Source of the DNA: Nitzschia sp. pyKryTriq1
Taxonomy: Eukaryota > Bacillariophyta > Bacillariophyceae > Bacillariales > Bacillariaceae
Direction: 5' to 3'
Length of the DNA: 64,000 nucleotides
NCBI GenBank assembly: GCA_956465555.1
Contig: OY101117.1
Coordinates: 1,364,001 to 1,428,000 of the forward strand
Translations under genes and position numbers: made by a program
Notes under the pieces: model-generated
The model's input: the letters and a program-made list of their open reading frames with translations, nothing else
What the model was told of the DNA's origin: nothing
Database searches by the model: none
Shown here: positions 13,174 to 31,926 of the stretch, piece by piece
How positions within the stretch are numbered: position 1 is the first letter of the stretch
How the letters are laid out: every line of letters starts with the position of its first letter

Positions 13174-15282
13174 TTAGGATGCTTGTTTTTCTGATTTCTG
13201 TCGTCCTCGTAGCTTCTGCAATAATGATTTTCCTGTCGTAACGATTGATTTTCTGACAGAACTCATTTCCAAACCTCCTACTGGTGTGCTATATTTGTTG
13301 CTTGGCTGCTCGAGCTCGATCCGTATATCTTCCGGCGACAAGCCCATATGACTGGTACAAAAGCGGAGCAACTGGCTACCCGAGTGCGTCACCATGATGA
13401 TGGGGATGCCACTTTTTATAAGAGTTGCTTCAATAGCTTTTGTAGTGGCCTCGTCCAGAGCGCTCATGCTCTCGTCCAGCAATAGCACTTTCGGTCGGAG
13501 GGAAAGAGCGATCGCTAGGGAAATGCGTTGCGCCTCTCCTCCTGATAAAGTTGACCACTCTTGGTGGAAAAGACGCTCTTCCACACCCCATCCTTGGGCT
13601 ATTTGCTCAGGTGATTGCTCCAAGAAGGTCGCATCGGAACTTTTCTTCAGTTGTTGTCGTTTGAATTGTCGAACTTCTTTGTAGAACATATTCGGTGTCC
13701 CCTGAATAGTTGGAATTCGTTGAGGAACTAAGCAAACTTGCGTTCGGAACGTTGGTAGATCTACATCGTCAAGGGTTTTCCCTTCGAACGTCAATTTCCC
13801 GCCTGCAGGTTCTTCCAGACCACCAATCGACCGAAGAACTTGCGACTTTCCCACGCCCGACTGCCCAGTAATACCGATACGGTCACCATCGTGCAACTTC
13901 AGAGTGACACTCGCCATTGCCCTCGGGACAGCCAACGATTCCGTCTTAAGAATGATAGCGCCAGATTTCCCCCCTGACTTGGTCGTGGCTTTTTGTTGTG
14001 CCACCGGTACTATCGGCTCTGGTGAGATTGTTTGGAGAAACGCAGGTACCGCATCTTTGTTGTGTTCGTGGTGCTTTCGTTCTGGCTTTTTCTGGAATAT
14101 TTCACGCCAAAATTGTCGCATCGATTTTCTTTGATGGCTTTTCTCTGGCTTGGAGGAGAGAATGCCTTGTCGAAGGCGATGGCTCTTGCTGTCCAATAAG
14201 GCGCCAATGGCCGATTTCATCAAAAGTTGGACGGTGATACACGCTGTGGTCGCAATGAGAAAGCTGATCATAATTTGATACAAGGCGGCCTGAGACACTT
14301 CCTGTCCCGCGAGAATCTGCCCCGTCATCATCCCAGGTAAATGCACTATTCCTGTTACAGCCAAGCCATTGATGGTGGGTGTAAGGGCCGTTGATAATGT
14401 GTCTTGGACTAAAGGAGAAATGGCTTCCTGCCAGGTGGCGCCCCGCGCCAGTCGAAGCTCCACGAAATCCTGCTGATTGACAAAGTCCTTGGTAAAAGTC
14501 GAAGCACCAAGCGCTGTTGCCGATAACGTATTCCCAAACAGCATTCCTGCCACAGGAATCCAGGTACGCGGTTGAAACCAAGGTTCAACGGTTCCAAGGA
14601 CCCTCAAAGCCAGAGTGAGAGAAAGAACAATGAATGCCCCAGCCCACACCGAAGTGTAAACGTGACGCCGCATTTTTGGATAGGTATATTGAATGCGGGA
14701 AAAGGCCTCATTTCCCGCGATGAAACCAACACCTGCAATCCAAGCGGCGACCAAGAGCGGGCGATCGACGCCAATCATTTTGTGCAAGATGACGGCCCCG
14801 AGAAGGAATACCTGCAAGGCACATCGGCTGGCCGAAAGTAGTAGCCCTTTTGCTATTTTGGACGCGCCAAAGGATAGTCCAAGAGGAAGGGCAGCAAGTC
14901 CGACCAACATGGTAGCAGCGGCGACTACATTCGACGCACCCAGCCTGCTTGGCATCATCCTCGAGGAAGCCGCTACTTGGACCGCTAACGCTGGACCAGA
15001 GTGTAGAGACAACGCCCACATTGTGCTGCACGCAGTAGCAGCGATTTTTGGAAGGATTTGGGAGCGCCCACCACTCTCATGTCGGTCAGGGCGAAAATCT
15101 CCATGAAACAAATTGTCCTTGGATTGAAGAACCGTCAACTCCCGGTTGGCCTCATTTTCAAAGATGATGATACTTGTTGGAGTGACAGTTTTTTGAAAAC
15201 GACGTGGCAGCGGCAAGGAAAATGAATCACTCCCTCCTATGGAAAGTGCGATAAATATGGGTGGTAGCCATGGCTTTCTCAT
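13174..15282 (-). CDS. ABC transporter, FetB/ALS3-type permease fused to FetA/STAR1-type ATPase
   Basis: One 702-residue chain carries both halves of a transporter that is two genes in bacteria (fetA, fetB) and plants (STAR1, ALS3/STAR2). Seen: an N-terminal hydrophobic leader with SDSFSLP, possibly a secretory/plastid leader. The UPF0014-type permease (about 105-370) has several membrane segments and the family block RLARGATWQEAISP plus TPTINGLAVTGIVHLPGMM. The ATPase (about 440-660) has Walker A TGQSGVGKSQ (~470), signature LSGGEAQRISLAIAL (~578), Walker B LLLDES (~600) and an H-loop MVTHS (~630). Bacterial FetAB exports iron and plant STAR1/ALS3 relates to aluminium tolerance; the substrate here is unknown. 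Organelle location is inferred only from the leader. Confidence 0.9.
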   Translation of the reverse strand: MRKPWLPPIFIALSIGGSDSFSLPLPRRFQKTVTPTSIIIFENEANRELTVLQSKDNLFHGDFRPDRHESGGRSQILPKIAATACSTMWALSLHSGPALAVQVAASSRMMPSRLGASNVVAAATMLVGLAALPLGLSFGASKIAKGLLLSASRCALQVFLLGAVILHKMIGVDRPLLVAAWIAGVGFIAGNEAFSRIQYTYPKMRRHVYTSVWAGAFIVLSLTLALRVLGTVEPWFQPRTWIPVAGMLFGNTLSATALGASTFTKDFVNQQDFVELRLARGATWQEAISPLVQDTLSTALTPTINGLAVTGIVHLPGMMTGQILAGQEVSQAALYQIMISFLIATTACITVQLLMKSAIGALLDSKSHRLRQGILSSKPEKSHQRKSMRQFWREIFQKKPERKHHEHNKDAVPAFLQTISPEPIVPVAQQKATTKSGGKSGAIILKTESLAVPRAMASVTLKLHDGDRIGITGQSGVGKSQVLRSIGGLEEPAGGKLTFEGKTLDDVDLPTFRTQVCLVPQRIPTIQGTPNMFYKEVRQFKRQQLKKSSDATFLEQSPEQIAQGWGVEERLFHQEWSTLSGGEAQRISLAIALSLRPKVLLLDESMSALDEATTKAIEATLIKSGIPIIMVTHSGSQLLRFCTSHMGLSPEDIRIELEQPSNKYSTPVGGLEMSSVRKSIVTTGKSLLQKLRGRQKSEKQAS

Positions 15283-15662
15283 TCTTGCTTTTGTACAGAC
15301 AGTAGTACGATAGAAGATGATAGACTATGATTGTTCCAATGTGTGTGTCATCATTTTCGTTGTCGTTGTCCTTGTTGTTGGGTGGGTTGGCGGTTGGCGG
15401 GTTGCGCATTGGTGTCATCAGTGTGTTCTCTTTGGGCGGTTCGCATGTTTGATGCGTGTCGTTTCGAGCTCCGATTGGAGTCGAAGGAATCATCGATGGA
15501 CCTCTTGACTTCAACCCACTAACAAACGGTACGGGTAGAAAGATAGAGCAGCATGGTGCTTGTTGAACATCCTACTGTACAAGTACTCGTCGACGCTAGA
15601 GTAGGTAGTTGGAAGCAAATGAACAGGTCGTTATTTCCCATTGCATCTACTAGCTAGCTCAA
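15283..15662. other. Spacer between two same-strand genes
   Basis: A T/G-rich segment upstream of the ABC fusion (15320-15420) reads open on the plus strand but looks low-complexity. A CTAGCTAG/CTAGTAG palindromic end lies near 15650. No gene is seen. Confidence 0.6.
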
Positions 15663-18150: not shown

Positions 18151-18790
18151 GTGTGCACCTACACGTGTCCCAAGACTCAAATGGCCGTGATTCAAGAGAG
18201 GCGACATAAGACGAATAATACGAACGCCACGGTGGAAGAAATGGACGAGGAGGGTTGCAACGAGAATGGCCCAAAGGATGTTCCACTGTTGAGTTCCACA
18301 GACTTGGACTGGCAACGAGAATGGCCCAGCAGGCCAGTGGAGTTCAAGGATGACTTTCGATGGTTGGCAACAGCAAACGTATCTCTCATATTCACTTTTC
18401 TTGACGAGCAAGAGCCATTCCGCAATTGGCTTACCTACCTGGGTAGAGCCAGAAGACTTTCAAGTTTTCGGTTTCCTAGATGACTTGGCTATCAAAACTT
18501 GTCGCCCTGGTTCAGAGGCCAGGCGACGCTACAATTTTGAGTACGACGTCGAGCGCGCTTTCTACAGTCGTTATTTCAGGGCTCACGGGCTCAAAGCCCA
18601 AGTTGTATTTTTACCCAACGGCATGATCAGAAGTATTTTTATTACTTCCTTACGACACAATGACAACGGATTGCTGAATATGAGTGGCTTAAACGACTAT
18701 TTGAGGGACATTCTTCAGGAGTATCGCGTTGGTGGCGACCGATTTCCCGGGTTGTACGCGGATGGTATTTTCGAAGAAACGAACATTTGA
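18151..18790 (+). mobile_element. Decayed DDE transposase, PIF/Harbinger-like (DDE_Tnp_4) fragment
   Basis: Two overlapping plus-strand frames carry the middle of a transposase common in diatoms. The first frame (18151-18483) ends its family-like part near FLDEQEPFRNWL. The second (18350-18790) continues with FGFLDDLAIKTCRPGS, HGLKAQVVFLPNGMI, SLRHNDNGLLNMSGLNDYL and YADGIF. The DDE_4 landmarks around the first two acidic residues are recognisable. A frameshift near 18435 splits the reading. The catalytic N-terminal and C-terminal parts are not found and no terminal inverted repeats are visible. This is an old DNA-transposon relic. Confidence 0.75.
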
Positions 18791-21759: not shown

Positions 21760-24700
21760 TTACCAGTGCAAGTGCCAAAGAAGAAGTGATGTCGAGATTG
21801 CGGCCACCAGGAAACCCTTACTTTGATGTGTGCTTCCAGCACTATTCCTAGGAGCTCCGCCCACCACGTCCATTTGGATTTCAAACTCGAATTGGGAGTT
21901 GGCATTTTCAAGCTGTTGCAAGTCCCGATGATTTCGGTGTTTGAGACTAGCGGCCAGAGCCTTGTGGAGACGGGGAGCCGCAGCATTGGGTGTTTGTACT
22001 AGATGACGTTCAGCTCGTCGCAATAACAATTCTTCCGGAGTGCATCGAGAGCAAGGGAGAGTGACTTGATAGACTCGCGAAGTCCCTCCTTCGCGGTCAG
22101 CGATCGACAAGTTATCGCACGTGGTAGGGATAAGTGCTGATGATGCGCTTCCTTGTTTCGAATTCACAAACACATAAAATGTGACTTCGTTTGCATAGCA
22201 GTTGGCAGTCAAGATCAGGGCGGTATCGCCTTGGAAAAGAACGGGACAGGAAGTTTGTCCAACGGGGGCCTCGGGGTACAAAACAGCATAGTAGTTGTCC
22301 GTTGCGGCAAAGTTCGGGGCGAACCTGTACGAGAGAGTTTGGTCGCCTTGATCCAATAGGGTAAACATGTCACCTTTCACCCTCGTGGCGTCGTCACCCA
22401 CCACCTTGATGGCATCGGCACATCCTTCTTTTAGATCTGGTGGCAAGTCATCGATAAAGACGTCGTCCAAGGGTTGCAAATGACGGGCTGGTGTTGCTTG
22501 TAAAACTCGCAGGCGGAAGGTATCGGTAATTGGTGGATCCAAAACCTTATTTCCGTCTTTGGTGACGCCACTAATCTGGATATTGTAGTCACCAGGAGAT
22601 GTATTGCCAGCGACGGAGAGGGCAAGAGCATTCGACTGATCCTCGGTCCCTTCGAAGATCCAAATTCCACTTCCACTGCTCTTGTCATTGATCGAGCCAC
22701 CTCCCTTCGCCGTCAAACTGACGGTTGTAGGTACGGAAGAAAAGGTCAACTTAACTACTTCGAGGGCGGTTTCTCCTGGAAGCTTGACGTTGTCATCCAT
22801 GCGAACAGCGAGAACGAGATCCCCCGAGCCATTTTGAGCAACATTAATGTTTTCGGCCACAATGAGGAATGGACTGGCCACAGGGTTGACTGTGACGATT
22901 GTTTCTGCCGTCACTTCCGCCTCTGCCAAAGCATCACTCGATTCACGAGTAATTGCGGAAAACACCAATGTAATGGTTCCCGAAAAGTACATAGGTGCTC
23001 GAAATTCCAAACCACTGAGGGTGTTGGAATCGTTTGGGAGGGACCAAATGCCATTTCCGGTGTTGGAGCCCATGTTGAAGAGAGAATTCTCAGGTACATT
23101 CGACACAAATACGGAAAGTGTCTCGAAGCCATTTTCGGGGTTTTGGTCTACAAGTTGGGCGCTAAAGTCGGGAGCAAAGGCAACATAATTGTTTTCGTCG
23201 ACGGTCACTCCGGCTGGGGCAGTGAGGATAGCTGGAGTGGGGACGGCCAGCACCGTAATGGTAAACTCGTTCATGGCAACCTTGCGGTAATCCGCATCCT
23301 GGTCGTCTTCTGTCTCCTCCGAGTACGCAATGACATCGATGACACAGTCCCCGTGCCAGTACAAGTCGGGCTGGACTTGAAGGTTTCCAGCTTTAGCCCG
23401 CGGGATTCTTCTGTAACCGACCGTAGACACATCGACGATAGTTGCATCGCTGTCGCCACTAGAGACTTGAGCAAACGATTCGACAAAGCTAGCACGATCG
23501 CAAAGCTTAATGTAGACCGAACCACCAGGCTGTTCACTTCCGTCAACATCCTGAGCAGAAAAGGAAAAATTCAGAGCGATCCGCTTGTTTTCATCGGACT
23601 GAGTAGAGGGAAGCGAGATTCCGAGGCCATCCGCGACCGGGTCGAAATACAACGGCACCGTAACAAGGCCAGATGTGGCAGAGCGAAAGGAACCGTTCAC
23701 AGCAAGAACCTCGATGGTGATGTCGAGATCCCCCCCAAAGTCGGTGGGCGGGACAAAGTGAACATTTCCGTCTTGAACGTCTTGTGCTCTGGCGACAAAG
23801 TGACCCGTCTTCAAGTTGGGAAGGAAGGTACCATTGAGCGCTGACCCAGTAGGGAAACTATTACTCTTGAAGACAATCGAGATGGCTGGATTCGATGGGT
23901 CATCCGGGTCGGCTTGGGCTGTAATATCCAAGGCAAGCTCCTCGTCCTCTAGGCCTTCGTTTGTGCCGATCGTCACAATTGGCGCCAACGGTGGAATCGC
24001 ACTTAGAGTACCCTCCCAGGAAAATTGGACCTGGAATGGAAGCTTAGTCATAGCGACGTCGCCATCATTCTCGGTAGCGACAGATGTGAGCTCAAATGTC
24101 GCTGTCGCTGTTGTGCTGGTTGCATTTTGAACAGCGAAGAAAAGTCCTCCGCTGGCTTCCGCCGCTGCAACATCTTCAGGGTACAGAAACCACGTATTTT
24201 CGCCCCCATCAAAACCAACAGGAGCATTCGATGAATCAACGAACTGAAATGCAGAAATTTGATCCATGTCAATGCCCTCGATAAAATAGTGAATTCGTTC
24301 GGAAAGAACCCTTCCTAGAGCAACGTCGGTATCGGTTGATTTCCCTCCGAGTGAGATGGGAATTCTAAGATGACCAGTTATTTCACTGTCCACGAAAATG
24401 GTGGGCACGTCTGCTGTACCCTTCAGCTCGACACTCAGGGATCCGTCTTGAACTATCGAATCGGAGACAGAAGCATTATCGATTGTCACTGTGTCGACAA
24501 TCTTTGCCGAAATGGGAACTGCAAAGTCGATATTTGAATCAAGAAACAAACTTGCTTTGAGCTTCAAGCTGCTGATTGCATTTGAAGCAACGGTTAAGAC
24601 GCCAGTAGGAGCATCGTAGGAGTACGACCCTTCAATCAGATTTCCTGAGATCAAGTCATCAAGGGTAGAGCCACCGGTGAGGTCATTCAGCCGTTGCCCG

Positions 24701-27700
24701 ACCTGGGCGTCTTCGATGAAACTGGACAGGTCCACATAGAACTCCTTAACAGATTCACTTCCATCTGTGTCGAGCATCGTGAAGTTGAGCGCACTGGAAA
24801 AAGATACCCCAGCTGCTCGAACGTCATGATCTTCTTCCGTAAGAGAAACCGACATGCTCCAGTCGATCGAGTCCGCCACTGGTTGAACTTTGATGGTGAT
24901 GGGCCAATCGTCAGAAACAGCTTGATTGCCTTCGATTTCCTGTGTGATCGCTCTAACAAACATGCCGTCATAGGGATTCATACCTGCAAAGTTCTTCAAA
25001 GAAGTGACTCGCAGGGACGGGATTGCTTCCTTGTCGATTTGCCAAGATCCATTGCCGACATATGAAATACCCTCGCCGTTGTCAGTCTTTGCGAGAATAC
25101 CATCGGGAAATCCACCTATCATGAATGAGAGGGTTTCACTTCCGTCTGTGTCAACCAGCACCCCAGTGTCCAAATCGCCAAAGAACTTGCCAATGGGATA
25201 ATCCTGGTCCTCGACAGCTTCCACGATCACCGTTCTTGACTTCGCCTTGTCCGCGACTCCAATAGAGACAACAGGAACAATTTGGCTGGCAGAGATGGAG
25301 ATGTCAAAAGCTCCCGTGTTCGAAGTGTCAGTGACAACTGCAGTGATAGTCAGCTCGATGTCACCTTGAACGGCGGAAGACCAATGCAGGGGTGGGAGAA
25401 TATGAAGCGCGTCAACATCTGCCGGCTTCAAAACGAACTTTCCTGATGGGGCCGCCTGAAGCTCAGTATCGCCAGCACCGAAAATCTTCGCTCCCTCCGG
25501 TAGATTCGCAGCGATTTCAAGAACAAAAGTCTCGGAACCATCATTGTCCTTGACGGTCACACCAACAGGAACAGCAATCTTGGTGTCTTCAAGGCCTTTG
25601 CTATTTGACTTGATCGTGATTGTTGGGGTGTCCGCCTTCGGGATGACAGTAACATCGAGATAATCAGTGACTGTCTCTGTCCGGGAAGTACCGTCTTCGC
25701 CACCGTACTGAAAACGACAAAAAGGAAAAAAAATTGCGCGTGAGAAAGTAAAAAGGAGCAAACTGGTTGAGAGTTTTCCTTCCACGTACCTCGTCCGGAG
25801 CAAGTTCGTCGCCTGTTGCGCTTTCAACAGATATAACTTGACAAGTCAAGGTCACTCTTCCCGACCAGTTTTCAGACGGAACGAACTGGAGGCCTTGACC
25901 AGATTCGTCATTTACAAAGGAATTTAGCAAAGACAACCTTTCTTCGACGGTGGAGCCTTCAGATCTCACCACAAAAATATTATCGATCGGTTCGCTCAAC
26001 GTCACCCCTGATGGAACCGTTGTAAGAGCACTAATGGTACCGGGTACTTTGTCCGCATCCAATGGGACAATGATACGCAGAAATGTCTCTTCAGACCCAT
26101 CAAGATCATCCGAAGCACCGACTTCTATCTTCAGGGGAATGGGAGCACCATCTTCATCAGTTGTGGCAGCAGCATAAACCAAGATACTTGGGGTGTCAGC
26201 AACCGCTTGGATGATGATATCGTGCGTGAAAGTGACTGTCTTGGTGCTTGACTGTCCTACGTTGACATCAAGAGTTGTCATTGAAATGGAGAGCTGCCCG
26301 TTCTCGTCCGAGTGAGCCGGCCCCATCTCAACCTCGAAGGTCTCCAAGGTGTCAAGAATGTCAGTGCTAGCATCTGTCCGCTGCTTCAAGGACAATGCCG
26401 ACAAATCTCCTGAAAGGATGGTGCTAGAAATGGTGTAGCTTCTCGTCGACTCGTCAAAAGAGACTTTCGCCGACCCCACACCATCAAAGTCTCCTGACAT
26501 TGTGTAGGTGATGCTCCCATCTTCGGGGACTTGAACGAGAATTTCCGAGAAGGTTTCGGTTTCAGGATTGTTGCCTGTCGCAAGATAGAGAGCAGAACGA
26601 AGATTCAAACAAATAAGCTCCAGCATTTTTCCCGATGACGACGAACCTGTTGATCGCACACCGGTGTGTACTTACCCGCTCCATTTCCTCTGTCTTTTGG
26701 TTTCAAACCAGTGTTGACCAGCGTGCTTCCAAAGGGAACAGGACCCAAGTCCTCAACGCCGACGGTTTTACCGGTGGGTTTCACGATATCATCCGCGATT
26801 GGGAAGACTTCGATCGAAAGAGGTCGGGGCGCTGTCGTCTTCTCTGCAATTCCAGACATAGTGTAGTCGATAATATGGGCTCGCAACGATAGGCTGATCT
26901 CACCGCTGAAATTCGGGGGAGGCCTAAGCTTGAAGGAGTTAGAACCGGAAAACTCATTCAGGCGCAGCCACCCATCATCAAGGACATTCCCTTTTTGCTC
27001 AGCATTATTGACGTAGAACTTTGTTCTGGTAGGGAAGCTCGTAGTGTCAATGTCAAGGTAGTAGACTTCCGAACCATCTTGGTCAGCTGTACCCTGCAAA
27101 TCTACTCCAACGACTCCCAAAGAGATAGTGGTATCCTCGTCGCCACTGGCCGTAGGCGCATTCACAGTCAAGACTGGTTCGCCTTGAATGACTGGGTCCA
27201 CAGGGATGACAAAAGTCTCGATCTTGCGAACTTCTAGTATTGCAACCTCGCCGGGCCCTTGTTCGGTCGGGTCAGATTCAACTGCGGCCGCTGTAACGGT
27301 GACTGTAATATCTTCTCCATTCTGATCACCTGGGCGAATCATTAGGTTATTCATTGCAATTGTGACGTCTTCCGTTGTTCCTTGGACAATGTATTGAGCA
27401 GGATTGCCGGGAGTGGATGTCACAACAACACCTTCGGGCAACACTGAAAATGAAACCACAGGCTCTGCTCCAGTAGCAACACCTGTAGGGGTCGAAAGGG
27501 TGATGTTGACAGATCGTCCAAGAAACGTCTCAGTTCCATCTTTGTCGTTCAAGCCTACAGTAACAGGGTAAGCAGTGAAGGTAGCGGTTGACTCTGTTTC
27601 AATGGCCTTCAACTGCAATCCTACATCAAGCGTTGGAGCATCGGCAACTGCTTGAACGATCACAGTGTGTATGATGTAAAACTCTTCCACAAGAAGTAGG

Positions 27701-30163
27701 TCCACTCCGTCAGTGTCAGTCGCATTCCCTACCATCTCGATCTGAAAGTTCGTGTCATCATCGTTTGCCAAGATGACTTCCAATGATGACAGGACAAGTA
27801 AGACATCTTCGACGTTGTCACCTCCAATTGTGACAGTGCCTCTTCCTTGGTCTACCGTTGTAGTGACATTCTCTCGGGATTGAGCAAAAGATAGATCGAT
27901 CGAATTGGTGGGAAAGCCAGTCAGCCGTGCCTCGAGAGTCTGTGATCCGTCCAAGTCATCCACTTTGACACCCATCAGCTCGCCAATTTTCACCAGCAAT
28001 TCTTGGTCCGAGTTAGAATCCAGGTTGTTCTCAGCAACGACACTCTGGTCACTTGTCATGTAGGGAAGATCAACTACCGGTGTGACAGTGATAGGAACCA
28101 AAGTCTCCGCAACTTCAGTCCTGGTGTCAAAATCACCAAGCGTTTCATGGGCAATACTGTTCGGAAAGGCAACATCGCCAGCTTCCGTCGAAACAGCTTC
28201 CACTGTCAACGTGTTGTGACCAGCATAATTAGCACGAGGCTGAAATGCAAGACTACTAGCTGTGTAGGCGTCCAAGTTTGCCTCTCGAGCAGCTGGATCT
28301 GGGCCCGATGCTTCTACCAGGTAGAGTCTCCCTCCCTGTGACGCCGTAAGGGTGACAGACGAAGAGGGAGATGTTTCAATTATTGTACCGATTGGACCGG
28401 AGCTGTCGCCCGGTACGGTAATCCGAACTGAAAGGGTTTCAGAGTTGTCTTCATCTGCACTGCGATCTGCGAAAACTTGAAGTTGGATAGGAGCCCCATC
28501 CTCCTCCAACTATCGAAAAGACAAGCGTTCGTGAGCGGAGTTGCCTTGACCATGCTGAGAGGGCAAACACGAACGAAACAAAATACGTACAGCTAGGCTT
28601 TCTGTTGCAGAAACTGTTGGCGGATCGGCCACCGCATAGACTTGAATTGCGCGCTCATACCGGTGATCACCATCTCCGACCTGAACGATCATATCGACGA
28701 CGAAGTTGACGTCCGAATGAAGGGGCGCTTGGACGCTGAGTGTATCCAGTGACGCTCGGATGGTCGCTTCCTCGTCGTTAGACAACGGATCTCCACTCCC
28801 AATCACAATGATGAAACTATCGTCTTCAACTACGGAAGAAACTAAAGTCCCGTCGGTATCTGTGTATTCAATAGATGCACCGACGGGGAATCCATTCAGC
28901 GAGATTCGATTAACTGACCCAAGTGGAGTATCATGATGAATCCAAAACAAGTCTCCGCCCAGGGTTCGAGATCGGTCTTCTACCAACCACGATGGACCGC
29001 CAAGCGCACAGAGACCCTCGCCAATACCTCGGACGACTCCCACCCCTTGCCATGCGTAGTAGTCAGCCCTTAGAATTGTGTTGAAAGCACATATTTCTTC
29101 GCCACGCATGCAGCCGTAATCGGTAAGTTGATCTGGAGACGAGAGTGAATCCATCACAATCGACCATTGCTTAACCTCTCGAGGGTCTTCGCGAATAAAG
29201 TAAAACCAGAAGACTCTGTCCAAATAAAGGCCTTGATCCTTGGATTCTTGCGCAAGCTCAACACAAACGCGCGTTTCATCGCCTTGATTCCTATGGTCCA
29301 TTTCCGTATAGTCAGAAAGAACAGTCGCTTGAAAACAGAAATCATAACGCGAAGACTCATAAAACATACCTCAAAAATCCAGGTTCTGCAAGCGGCTGCT
29401 TGTCATCGTCGCATTCATAAGCGATGATCTCGCAATCCAGAAAGGCCGTCCTTTCCAGTTTTGCTTTGTCCTCGACGAGCACGTTTCCAACATCGAACCC
29501 ATCGGTCAGATCCACGTAAAACGTTACACTACGAGCATTGAAACGGGGGCAAAAGCAGGGTCAGTCGGTGGAAACAAACAGTTGGAAACCTCCAGCTGGC
29601 GGGCTCAAAGCTTACAGAGTCTCTTGAAAATTGACTTCGATTGCATCACTTGCTCGATGATCGGCATTGTAAAGACTGAATCGAACGCAAAAGTCAACGA
29701 CCGCTTTCAGTTGGTTGTCCTCGGTGTAGTACAAGAGGTCTGTATTGGCTAGTGTAGGTTGTACATCCATGAAAGCCCGAAAATCGCGGAATCCGTCTCC
29801 CAGGTTTGGATTGTTCGGATCGTATCGAGTATTGGAGTCGGGTTGGATGCCCAAATTCTGTAAGTATGCTCCAGTGAGGATGTCGCGATGGTTGGTCATT
29901 GACTCGGTGATATCAGTGTTCCCTTCTTTGCAGTTGTGGCCATCGTAAACTGTAAAGGTAGCGTGGGCATCGGGAATATAATCGCTTGTGCGCCATGTGA
30001 AGCTGAACTGCGAGTTTTCGTAGCGAAAGTCGGGGTCCTGGATTGCCCACCACTTTTCATCGATTTGAAGTCGTCTGGAAAGTGACTTCGTACGAGCATA
30101 GCCGGCACAGGCTGCTTGGAGGATTATCGATCCAACGGCAAGGAAGAGTGTCCTTCGAAACAT
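21760..30163 (-). CDS. Giant secreted, GPI-anchored-type adhesin with ~14 cadherin/VCBS-like repeats
   Basis: Six exons (30163..29616, 29528..29370, 29290..28591, 28509..26676, 26574..25790, 25707..21760) are linked by five GT-AG introns of 79-101 nt. All phases are compatible and the product is 2657 residues. Seen: a signal peptide (FLAVGSIILQAACAG), then a ~480-residue N-terminal region with several cysteines. About fourteen ~150-180-residue repeats follow. Many open with V-x-ADTPT-like linkers and carry Ca2+-site-like acidic loops (DDLDGSEE, DTDGSES, DNDGSET) ahead of a strand and an LP turn. A Cys-rich segment and a hydrophobic tail (FLVAAISTSLLLWHLHW) after small residues fit a GPI signal. 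The repeats closely resemble those of bacterial RTX/LapA-type biofilm adhesins. A role in adhesion or matrix binding is inferred. Exon 2/3 is the least certain junction. Confidence 0.85.
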
Positions 30164-30726
30164 ATTTTGACTTGCTGTGTATTGTAATTGAATTGATCAG
30201 AGTGGTTAGTCCCCAAAATGTGGTGTTGATCAAAGAACTGAAATTTTTTGTTTTCTTATTGTATTATTATTGTGTCAGCTCAAGCCGGGTTGGGCGGACA
30301 AATTGTTAGTCTATGTATGTTCTCCCCTGCCGGTACTGTTCCGGTGTGACGAACAACGACGACTACTTGTCTAATCTCTGTGAGTATGGTTCGCTCTATG
30401 TGTCTGAGTCTACAGTATCTTTTTCTTCTCGTTATTTTGTGATTCGTAGAAAGTCCAAAACTTCCCGTACATAGAAGTACGTGTCCCTCTGACAGTCATT
30501 TCGGAATATTTTCCCCAAGACTTATGGATCCAATAAACAGCCCCACATGCCCAATTCTCCGAATTTGCGTAAAACAGATATCGGAAAAGACGAACCAAAG
30601 TTGGGGAGTCATTTAACGGAGAATCTATAAGATCTCCTCATTGGAGGATGACTGACTGATCTTGGCGAGCGTGTAAAGAATAATCCGATTCGAAACCCAT
30701 TCACCGATGAAAGGACAGACCGTCCG
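30164..30726. other. Adhesin upstream region
   Basis: The first few hundred bases upstream of the adhesin ATG are AT-rich and hold no full GTACC cluster, only single motifs near 30335. A minus-strand ORF of 62 codons (30410-30598) has no assignable family. No gene is called. Confidence 0.5.
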
Positions 30727-31341
30727 TTGAGACCGTTGAGGTATCATTCAGATGTGGGCAAGGACTTAATAGCGAGGAAGCTGGCGACTCTGGTGTACGA
30801 GCACGAGGTCTGCCTGAGTGGTCAGCATCTCCCAGGAGAGCACAATCACGTCGCCGATTGGCTCACGTATGAGGGAAATGAGCGAGCTGAAGGAACGAAC
30901 CCACTCACGGAAGACGAGCCTGATGACGAGACACTAACAGAGCGCCTCCACACTCTATTCCCACAGATGATTCCCCCGGGTTTTCGAATCTGTTCGCTCG
31001 AGCCCGAGAAGCTCTCTTGGATCGTTCGCGTGCTGCGAACACTCGAATCATCGTTGATGCAAGAGGAGAAGCAGCAAATGAGCGGGACGACCGACACTGG
31101 AGGCGCTACACTAGATTCCTCGAGTTCGTGGACATTGATCAACACGAGGTCGATTGTCTACGGGCGGAAGAGAAAGAGATACTCGCGAAGGCCTTCTTCG
31201 AAACTGTTCGAAATGGCCAGTTCGATGTCGAAGGTCGCATGGTTGGACGGCGTGCAAGACCAATGGCTGGACCAACAGTCAGCGGTGCCGCAGGATCTGT
31301 GGCTGCGACGTTATCTCCGTAGTCTGTACTTCGTCAGCTGA
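30727..31341 (+). mobile_element. Retroelement fossil, RNase H / post-RT region (DIRS-like or related)
   Basis: This is a truncated, broken remnant of a reverse-transcribing element. Its readable part resembles the end of an RNase H domain and the following linker (HLPGEHNHVADWLTYE, then IPPGFRICSLEP-type sequence). It is common in algal retroelements with a tyrosine recombinase, but the family assignment is tentative. No terminal repeats are seen around it. It looks old. Confidence 0.55.
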
Positions 31342-31926
31342 CTGATGACTCGTGGGACTTCTTCCTCAGTCCCGTGTCGTGTAGTATTACTAGTAGTTCG
31401 TCTGATCTTCCGATGCACGAACCTGTCTCAAGTAAAGTAAACCTTCGTCTCAAACTCGAGATTATGACAATGTTATTCTACTTTTGATAACTCCATTTGT
31501 TGGATTTGGATCTTTGCTCTCGCCGATCAGTCTTGGAACTGCTGGATCCAATTAATCATATCTTCCGTGATGAAGATACTGATATTCGCTCCCAACTGTC
31601 TATATCTCTATCCCACATTCTTTCCTGTTATGGTAGCCTTTCGCTCCGTTTAGGGAATCACAATCATTGGATTGTATTATTCATTCTTCATGTATAGTAA
31701 ACAATAGTTTCCGCTGGAACGTCGCTTCCAAGACTACCGTCCGATTGAATCGCAGACTCATCCGATTGGATCTCCATTTGGGACTGTTTCTGTACATCGC
31801 GAATCCAATTCACGACAGCAAAGCACAGAGAAAACAGCTCTGGCTATTCAATATTCAATTGTTTATAGTCTGTTTTTCGTACTTTTCTTGCTCTATTGGA
31901 ATGATCATTCAGCCAAAAGACCCATC
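31342..31926. other. Spacer upstream of the DUF1244-MogA gene
   Basis: This is AT-rich spacer with no palindrome cluster and no gene seen. The last ~100 nt form the likely 5' UTR of the fusion gene. Confidence 0.5.

Follow-up and report, generated by a model that had tools for sequence, protein, structure and literature searches.

An ordered array of fifteen repeats of bacterial descent within a diatom gene of Nitzschia sp. pyKryTriq1

Structure of the gene and its repeats

We analyzed a 64,000-nucleotide stretch of the genome of Nitzschia sp. pyKryTriq1 (GenBank assembly GCA_956465555.1, contig OY101117.1, positions 1,364,001 to 1,428,000 of the forward strand), hereafter the window, and focused on one long gene on its minus strand. 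The genome comprises 40.65 Mb in 20 contigs, and the window lies within contig C3 (3.6 Mb). The genome is marked as that of a diatom by eight silicon-transporter matches, of which seven exceeded 870 bits and one had 451.5 bits. The original prediction had read the gene as a repeat adhesin of the bacterial type, carried by a eukaryotic protein with a glycosylphosphatidylinositol (GPI) anchor. We regard it as nearly certain that the gene is a mosaic, with respect to the bacterial origin of its repeats, their order, and the anatomy of head, array and tail.

The gene model contained six exons and five GT-AG introns that together restore one frame of 2657 residues, exactly the number predicted. Its parts, in window positions, are:

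21760–30163, minus strand: whole gene, six exons, 2657 amino acids, joints backed by homology
30163–29616, minus strand: exon 1
29529–29615, minus strand: intron 1, 87 nt, GT-AG, inside the head; paralogues uninterrupted at this joint
29528–29370, minus strand: exon 2
29291–29369, minus strand: intron 2, 79 nt, GT-AG, inside the head; paralogues uninterrupted at this joint
29290–28591, minus strand: exon 3
28510–28590, minus strand: intron 3, 81 nt, GT-AG, between repeats 1 and 2; bacterial orthologues uninterrupted
28509–26676, minus strand: exon 4
26575–26675, minus strand: intron 4, 101 nt, GT-AG, in the array; bacterial orthologues uninterrupted
26574–25790, minus strand: exon 5
25708–25789, minus strand: intron 5, 82 nt, GT-AG, in the array; bacterial orthologues uninterrupted
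25707–21760, minus strand: exon 6

Aligned paralogues from the same genome continue across joints 1 and 2, and intron-free bacterial orthologues continue across joints 3, 4 and 5, with single-residue gaps within five residues on either side of joint 3. Among several AG dinucleotides tested as the acceptor of intron 2, the frame stayed open over the 600 bases examined with two, and we chose the one supported by paralogues. Searched alone (E ≤ 1), exon 1 found 17 places in its own genome and exon 3 found 21, each including itself. Because the two exons matched largely common loci, for example places on contigs C15, C13, C2, C3, C9 and C17, these searches support their belonging to one gene. All five splice joints thus appear to be supported by homology.

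The encoded protein was divided into the following regions, where HMM denotes a hidden Markov model and L080 is a bacterial frame described in the next section:

30104–30163, minus strand: signal peptide candidate, residues 1–20; the most hydrophobic 15-mer of the protein starts at residue 6
28999–30100, minus strand: N-terminal diatom-family domain (the head), residues 22–333, from the paralogue HMM; introns 1 and 2 lie inside
22498–28998, minus strand: bacterial-derived array of 15 repeats, residues 334–2412, from the L080 alignment, order control and tree; introns 3–5 lie inside, and the ends are accurate to within some residues
24829–25665, minus strand: repeats 8–9, residues 1357–1635, two beta-sandwich domains as modelled (AlphaFold2, Foldseek)
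21946–22497, minus strand: C-terminal region with several cysteines, residues 2413–2596; no relative found in Pfam or the diatom's own genome
21763–21945, minus strand: putative diatom-family tail with GPI-type signal, residues 2597–2657, from the tail HMM and paralogue alignment

The repeat profile with which we searched the protein was derived from 108 non-redundant repeats of bacteria; it held no diatom sequence, and its loci were recruited by a query holding one diatom repeat. The profile gave 15 tandem envelopes over residues 356–2413 (292.7 bits in all), with domain E < 1e-3 in 12 of them and weak values in the other three (E 0.0016–0.022). The best of 200 shuffled sequences reached 10.7 bits, and the reversed protein −22.5 bits. 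The predicted array was therefore upheld, with a count of 15 instead of about 14 repeats. The repeats also resembled each other, as 28 ordered pairs matched at E < 0.01 compared with at most 4 in 60 shuffles. The acidic loops of the type D-x-DGSE/T that had been predicted were present, with eight strict D-x-D-G/N-S-E/Q motifs in the protein. The diatom protein, scanned in two pieces with Pfam and NCBIfam, gave no match over cut-off; those below it included CopC (E 0.088), MBG_2 (E 0.52) and tandem-95 (E 7e-4, 19.4 bits where the cut-off is 90). A sequence search of the PDB with exon 6 gave no match up to E 1.

AlphaFold2 modelled repeats 8–9 as beta-sandwiches with a mean pLDDT (predicted local distance difference test) of 90.3, so that for these two repeats structure prediction did not refute the fold that had been proposed. 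The ten best PDB matches of this model in Foldseek were all cadherins. As modelled for repeats 8–9, the diatom protein resembles metazoan cadherins in its tandem beta-sandwich domains with acidic loops, but the structural scores between them were low (see below) and the diatom protein matched no cadherin family in Pfam up to E 1. A search of the diatom genome for Cadherin_4 (PF17803) also gave no match.

Relation of the array to bacterial proteins

Residues 334–2412 of the diatom protein aligned in a single piece with residues 1491–3559 of L080, a 3708-residue frame in bacterial genome G294. The alignment extended over 2132 columns, of which 891 were identical (41.8%), 1243 positive and 116 gaps, and scored 1325 bits; that is, L080 contains the same 15 repeats in the same order at 42% identity. 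Frames L081 (40.9%, 1294 bits) and L097 (41.2%, 1174 bits, cut by a contig end) came near to this, and L082 gave 36.1% and 948 bits. Besides L080, L081 and L097, the bacterial frames ranged from 28% to 36% identity, some of them cut by contig ends.

When diatom repeats were searched singly, 14 of the 15 found the L080 repeat that holds the corresponding position. The exception, repeat 2, landed on the slot of repeat 7, and these two repeats are alike both in the diatom (phmmer E 1e-14) and, by eye, in L080. The true order of the repeats scored 1323 bits, whereas 100 shuffles of that order gave at most 386. In an earlier comparison without L080, a bacterial repeat outscored every sibling for 13 of the 15 repeats, the exceptions being repeats 2 and 7, which preferred each other. 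Because the array is colinear with L080 and loses most of its score when the order is shuffled, it appears to have been acquired as one ordered block. The original prediction had offered acquisition or convergent expansion; we concluded that the array evidently came ready-made and ordered, and was not convergently expanded.

Further relatives came from the same bacterial order. Repeats 9–12, 14 and 15 had their best match at the corresponding place of one protein from a Nitratireductor metagenome-assembled genome (MAG), which belongs to the order of G294; NCBI places Nitratireductor in Hyphomicrobiales. This frame (L041, JAGRLM010000132.1) matched residues 1326–2394 in a single piece (32% identical, E 1e-102). 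It is cut by a contig end, and by eye we saw repeats-in-toxin (RTX) motifs at its end, followed by frames resembling a TolC-type channel and an ATP-binding cassette (ABC) transporter. The same query was searched in five genomes with such repeats: it found itself in its own genome and short matches in the four others, and four of the five were matched at E ≤ 1e-5. Among 397 genomes of the Nitratireductor MAG’s order, seven had a match at E ≤ 1e-15, one of them that MAG. Among 103 genomes of L080’s family, exon 4 matched five at E ≤ 1e-20, three of them across nearly the full query.

Sequences around the L080 array suggested how its protein may be exported. Downstream of the array, L080 passed the cut-offs for RTX repeats (HemolysinCabind) and for a type I secretion target domain (TIGR03661). 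Genes downstream of it encode an outer membrane efflux protein, which passed the Pfam cut-off for OEP and narrowly missed that of TIGR01844, and an ABC transporter that exceeded the threshold for the LssB subfamily (TIGR03375). Given these domains and adjoining genes, an LssB-type system most likely exports L080. The predicted kinship with repeats of type I-secreted bacterial adhesins was borne out by the orthologous array in L080. The diatom match stops at residue 2412, directly before the RTX part of L080, and in the diatom protein no RTX or type I secretion target family was found up to E 1.

Arrays of such repeats extend adhesins in bacteria, and LapA-type adhesins are bacterial proteins kept on the cell through their N-terminal half. 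A LapA-type retention module had no NCBIfam match in either the diatom protein (E ≤ 1) or L080 (E 0.001); residues 22–333 of the diatom protein match a diatom family instead. The diatom protein shares with type I-secreted giant adhesins a long tandem array of orthologous repeats, but the RTX/secretion end of those adhesins was not found in it, nor were the adjoining genes of a type I secretion system (T1SS) found in the window. In particular, we recognized no T1SS outer membrane channel or ABC transporter genes by eye among window frames of at least 150 amino acids, and seven window frames were scanned with Pfam. Three parts of L080 are missing from the diatom protein: its N-terminal half, the RTX repeats and the secretion end. 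The diatom gene, for its part, has introns, a signal peptide candidate, a diatom head and a GPI-type tail.

The same repeat type occurs in an ‘Ig-like domain-containing protein’ of Azospirillum sp. B510 (WP_012977562.1, 5519 amino acids), which has T1SS adaptor and ABC genes nearby. It is ~25% identical over the array, in overlapping alignments that have different offsets and like scores and so define no single register. A tblastn search of plasmids with the L080 array gave Azospirillum matches only, and matches of a repetitive Azospirillum segment to unrelated families were set aside as repetition artefacts. No relative was found on viral contigs (76 stretches matched a pattern and none was confirmed) and phage records gave no match; thus, we saw no sign of a viral carrier.

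The original prediction had called for a phylogeny of single repeats against bacterial and stramenopile homologues; a phylogeny of the array with bacterial homologues was run here, and the diatom nested among bacteria. The rooted tree had 12 rows, with three more distant alphaproteobacterial proteins (two from Azospirillum, one from a MAG) as outgroup; L098 (a partial frame) and L041 and L087 (cut by contig ends) were left out. The diatom grouped within the bacterial family: it formed a clade at 100/100 support with L080, L081, L097 and L082, outside which fell L085/L086, L083 and L084. Monophyly of the eight bacterial orthologues without the diatom was rejected by the approximately unbiased (AU) test (p ~1e-52), under a simple model, in a test picked after a first tree, and with outgroup repeats possibly out of register.

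We also examined what has been conserved since the transfer. Of 834 columns invariant in four bacteria, the diatom retained 61%, including 38 of 43 glutamates, 68 of 84 aspartates, 6 of 7 tryptophans and 20 of 23 phenylalanines. By a looser pattern for what counts as kept, 9 of the 10 D-x-D-G-S-E-type loops of L080 were also retained. These values fit an old transfer that would have been under selection for the fold and for calcium-type sites; calcium binding of the array is suggested by its motifs. The GC content at third codon positions (GC3) was similar in the array (0.496), the head (0.514) and four neighbouring frames (0.499–0.558), compared with 0.742 in L080. Three introns were gained inside the bacterial part, and its base composition is now that of the host.

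The head, the tail and the region between array and tail

An HMM built from eight paralogues in the same genome matched residues 22–333 of the full protein (222 bits), or residues 20–326 when residues 1–340 were searched alone (226 bits). Shuffled sequences scored at most 4.3 bits (117 of 200 gave a reported score). The head model ends at residue 333 and the bacterial match begins at 334, with the ends of these local alignments uncertain by some residues. Exon 3 located 20 further genome places of the head family. Loci L013–L025 of this family lie on contigs C1, C2, C3, C8, C9, C13, C15 and C17. Five members of the family were scanned and matched no Pfam family.

A candidate signal peptide and a GPI-type pattern (a small-residue site, a spacer and a hydrophobic C-terminus) were both present, as judged by eye and by hydropathy; some stretches within the repeats are at least as hydrophobic as the C-terminal tail. 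The eight aligned paralogues have a hydrophobic end shortly after the head, by eye. An HMM of five paralogue tails, three of them near-identical, gave the tail of our gene 14.9 bits, over an RxLQ...EF-type linker and hydrophobic tail. This score was reached in none of 1000 full shuffles and none of 1000 shuffles that kept the hydrophobic end. We concluded that the head belongs to a resident diatom family, and that the tail appears to do so likewise, on weaker evidence. It had been predicted that the gene gained introns and a GPI signal: gain of introns in the repeats was supported for three of the five (the other two lie in the diatom head), whereas gain of a GPI signal was not, as the tail would be that of the resident family.

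No second gene with such an array was found in the genome with bacterial repeat, exon 6 or exon 4 queries, in searches that score the best candidates only. The exon 4 query found itself and one more place, both within this gene. A bacterial double-repeat query found three places in this gene and one on C2 at E 0.076, which we rejected as a relative of the array because it encodes a low-complexity protein.

The head family itself varies in form. By eye, some members end in a GPI-type tail, and others combine repeated copies of the head with a transmembrane segment and a long, charged C-terminal stretch. On C9 there are several copies that closely resemble one another.

Interpretation and genomic setting

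Our preferred explanation begins with a diatom surface-protein gene, encoding a signal peptide, a ~310-residue head and a GPI-type tail, as recipient. Between head and tail this gene holds a block of ~2080 codons derived from a protein of the type I-secreted giant adhesin kind, in an alphaproteobacterium near Nitratireductor’s order (Hyphomicrobiales). All 15 repeats stand in the block in bacterial order, and neither the N-terminal half of the bacterial protein nor its C-terminal RTX/secretion end is present; within the block, three introns were gained and the base composition turned host-like. The protein would pass through the endoplasmic reticulum and be GPI-anchored at its C-terminus. The array, presumably stiffened by calcium, may serve as a stalk: it would keep the diatom head at a distance from the membrane, within reach through the silica wall or beyond it, where it could attach to a surface, a matrix or another cell. 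If the bacterial relatives are held by their N-terminal half, the polarity of the array would have been turned round. We lean towards an adhesive role of the stalk, and consider the explanation as a whole, a mosaic gene with a bacterial array as adhesive stalk, to be probable. A further idea, that the whole 15-domain extender of a bacterial biofilm adhesin was turned round as a GPI-anchored stalk for the diatom's own head and that diatom and bacterial surfaces, now bearing homologous arrays, might stick to each other through their like repeats, is speculative and rather unlikely.

Several observations weigh against this explanation. Residues 2413–2596 are explained neither by the diatom-family head and tail nor by the bacterial array, and they matched no Pfam family (E ≤ 0.01) and had no second copy in the genome (E ≤ 10). 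The kinship of the tail is weak in absolute score, and a family-wide HMM gave the tail −1.0 bits (E 0.036). Structural support was uneven: template modelling scores (TM-scores) of the ten best cadherin matches to repeats 8–9 were low (0.23–0.37, root-mean-square deviation 8 to 19) with antibody-like and other beta proteins next in the list, so that the fold is claimed at the level of topology only, and the model of repeats 10–12, built from three sequences, was poor (mean pLDDT 46). The tree gave the diatom a long branch (0.88), and the letter make-up was unlike in 8 of 12 rows. The grouping of the diatom with L080, L081 and L097 without L082 was neither shown nor rejected (AU p 0.18), and that of the diatom with L082 gave AU p 0.06. 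N-glycosylation sites numbered 7.2 per 1000 residues in the array compared with 9.6–15.5 in the bacteria; because these motifs were not enriched, there was no sign of adaptation to glycosylation. Lastly, a surface stalk may have other uses.

This last alternative, in which the origin is the same and the product is a structural component of wall or girdle, takes part in mating or recognition, or serves as a receptor for bacteria, seems to us possible, if short of likely. In its favor, the head family (~20 genome places) has no known role and its five scanned members no Pfam family. Nothing speaks against it directly, and the link of such arrays to adhesins is a family-level argument. The other alternatives concern origin. 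Internal duplication often makes tandem repeats, and the likeness of repeats 2 and 7 would suit an array that multiplied within the diatom and came to resemble bacterial ones. However, the closeness of 13 repeats to bacterial repeats over siblings, the 14 repeats that fell in their own L080 slots, and the loss of most of the score on shuffling leave this convergence with next to no probability; colinearity with L080 refutes it, provided that the bacterial frames are genuine.

Bacterial contamination or a mis-assembled chimera might be suspected from the bacterial ancestry of the array, the assembly having been taken as deposited. We consider it very improbable, because contamination would not account for three introns in the array, a host-like GC3 and a diatom-family head. 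The gene also stands on a 3.6 Mb contig between large flanking frames that by eye look like ordinary eukaryotic genes, and its best bacterial match is 42% identical. A similarly small chance was given to transfer from a eukaryote to bacteria, or old eukaryotic inheritance of the array, for which one may note that one eukaryotic genome was searched. Against it, the diatom nests within the bacterial family, the repeat type is found in large proteins of Azospirillum and other bacteria (with T1SS genes beside that of Azospirillum sp. B510), and the bacterial double-repeat query found only this gene and one low-complexity protein.

Transfers of bacterial genes into algae have mostly been reported for enzymes or single domains. 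In the Trailins, which are diatom adhesive trail proteins, the transferred part is reported to be a Choice-of-Anchor A domain and not a tandem array. The protein studied here had no Pfam or NCBIfam match to that domain up to E 1. Both would be diatom proteins of bacterial origin, and we set them apart by description, not by sequence. Two papers (PMC11420354, PMC13056149) cite, by its title, a report of such trail proteins acquired from bacteria through horizontal transfer (Zackova Suchanova et al. 2023, doi 10.1111/nph.19145). In Nitzschia inconspicua, 11 proteins were described, by automatic naming, as ‘outer membrane adhesin’, some clusters being unique to that species (PMC8329260); this is a keyword count that gives neither origin nor structure, and these proteins are possibly relatives. 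Excerpts on Thalassiosira oceanica describe ‘Adhesin 1’ (p329) as induced by low iron and surface-targeted (PMC3491386); likewise called an adhesin, it may be related, the comparison being one of description only. A type I-secreted array in a eukaryote was not found among the literature matches listed, a search in which subscription papers lay mostly outside the scope.

The present gene offers an ordered 15-domain array (~2080 residues), each repeat of which can be traced from a secreted protein of bacteria to its place in the diatom gene. Both joints are placed to within some ten residues, introns were evidently gained inside, and a head and, it appears, a tail of a resident family lie around it. 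It opens the eukaryotic take-over of a bacterial adhesin to direct testing, and is relevant to the attachment of diatoms to surfaces and to bacteria.

Additional features were observed near the gene. By eye, two plus-strand frames look like remnants of mobile elements, one at 30652–31341 with no Pfam match up to E 0.01, and one at 18293–18790 with a match to DDE_Tnp_4 below cut-off. A plus-strand frame at 31708–33180 matches DUF1244 and a molybdopterin-binding domain, which is either an unusual pairing or two neighbours read together. On the minus strand, a single frame at 13174–15324 joins a UPF0014 permease to an ABC ATPase (Pfam) and was the sole ABC frame among the seven scanned; these two are usually separate proteins (FetB/FetA, STAR2/STAR1).

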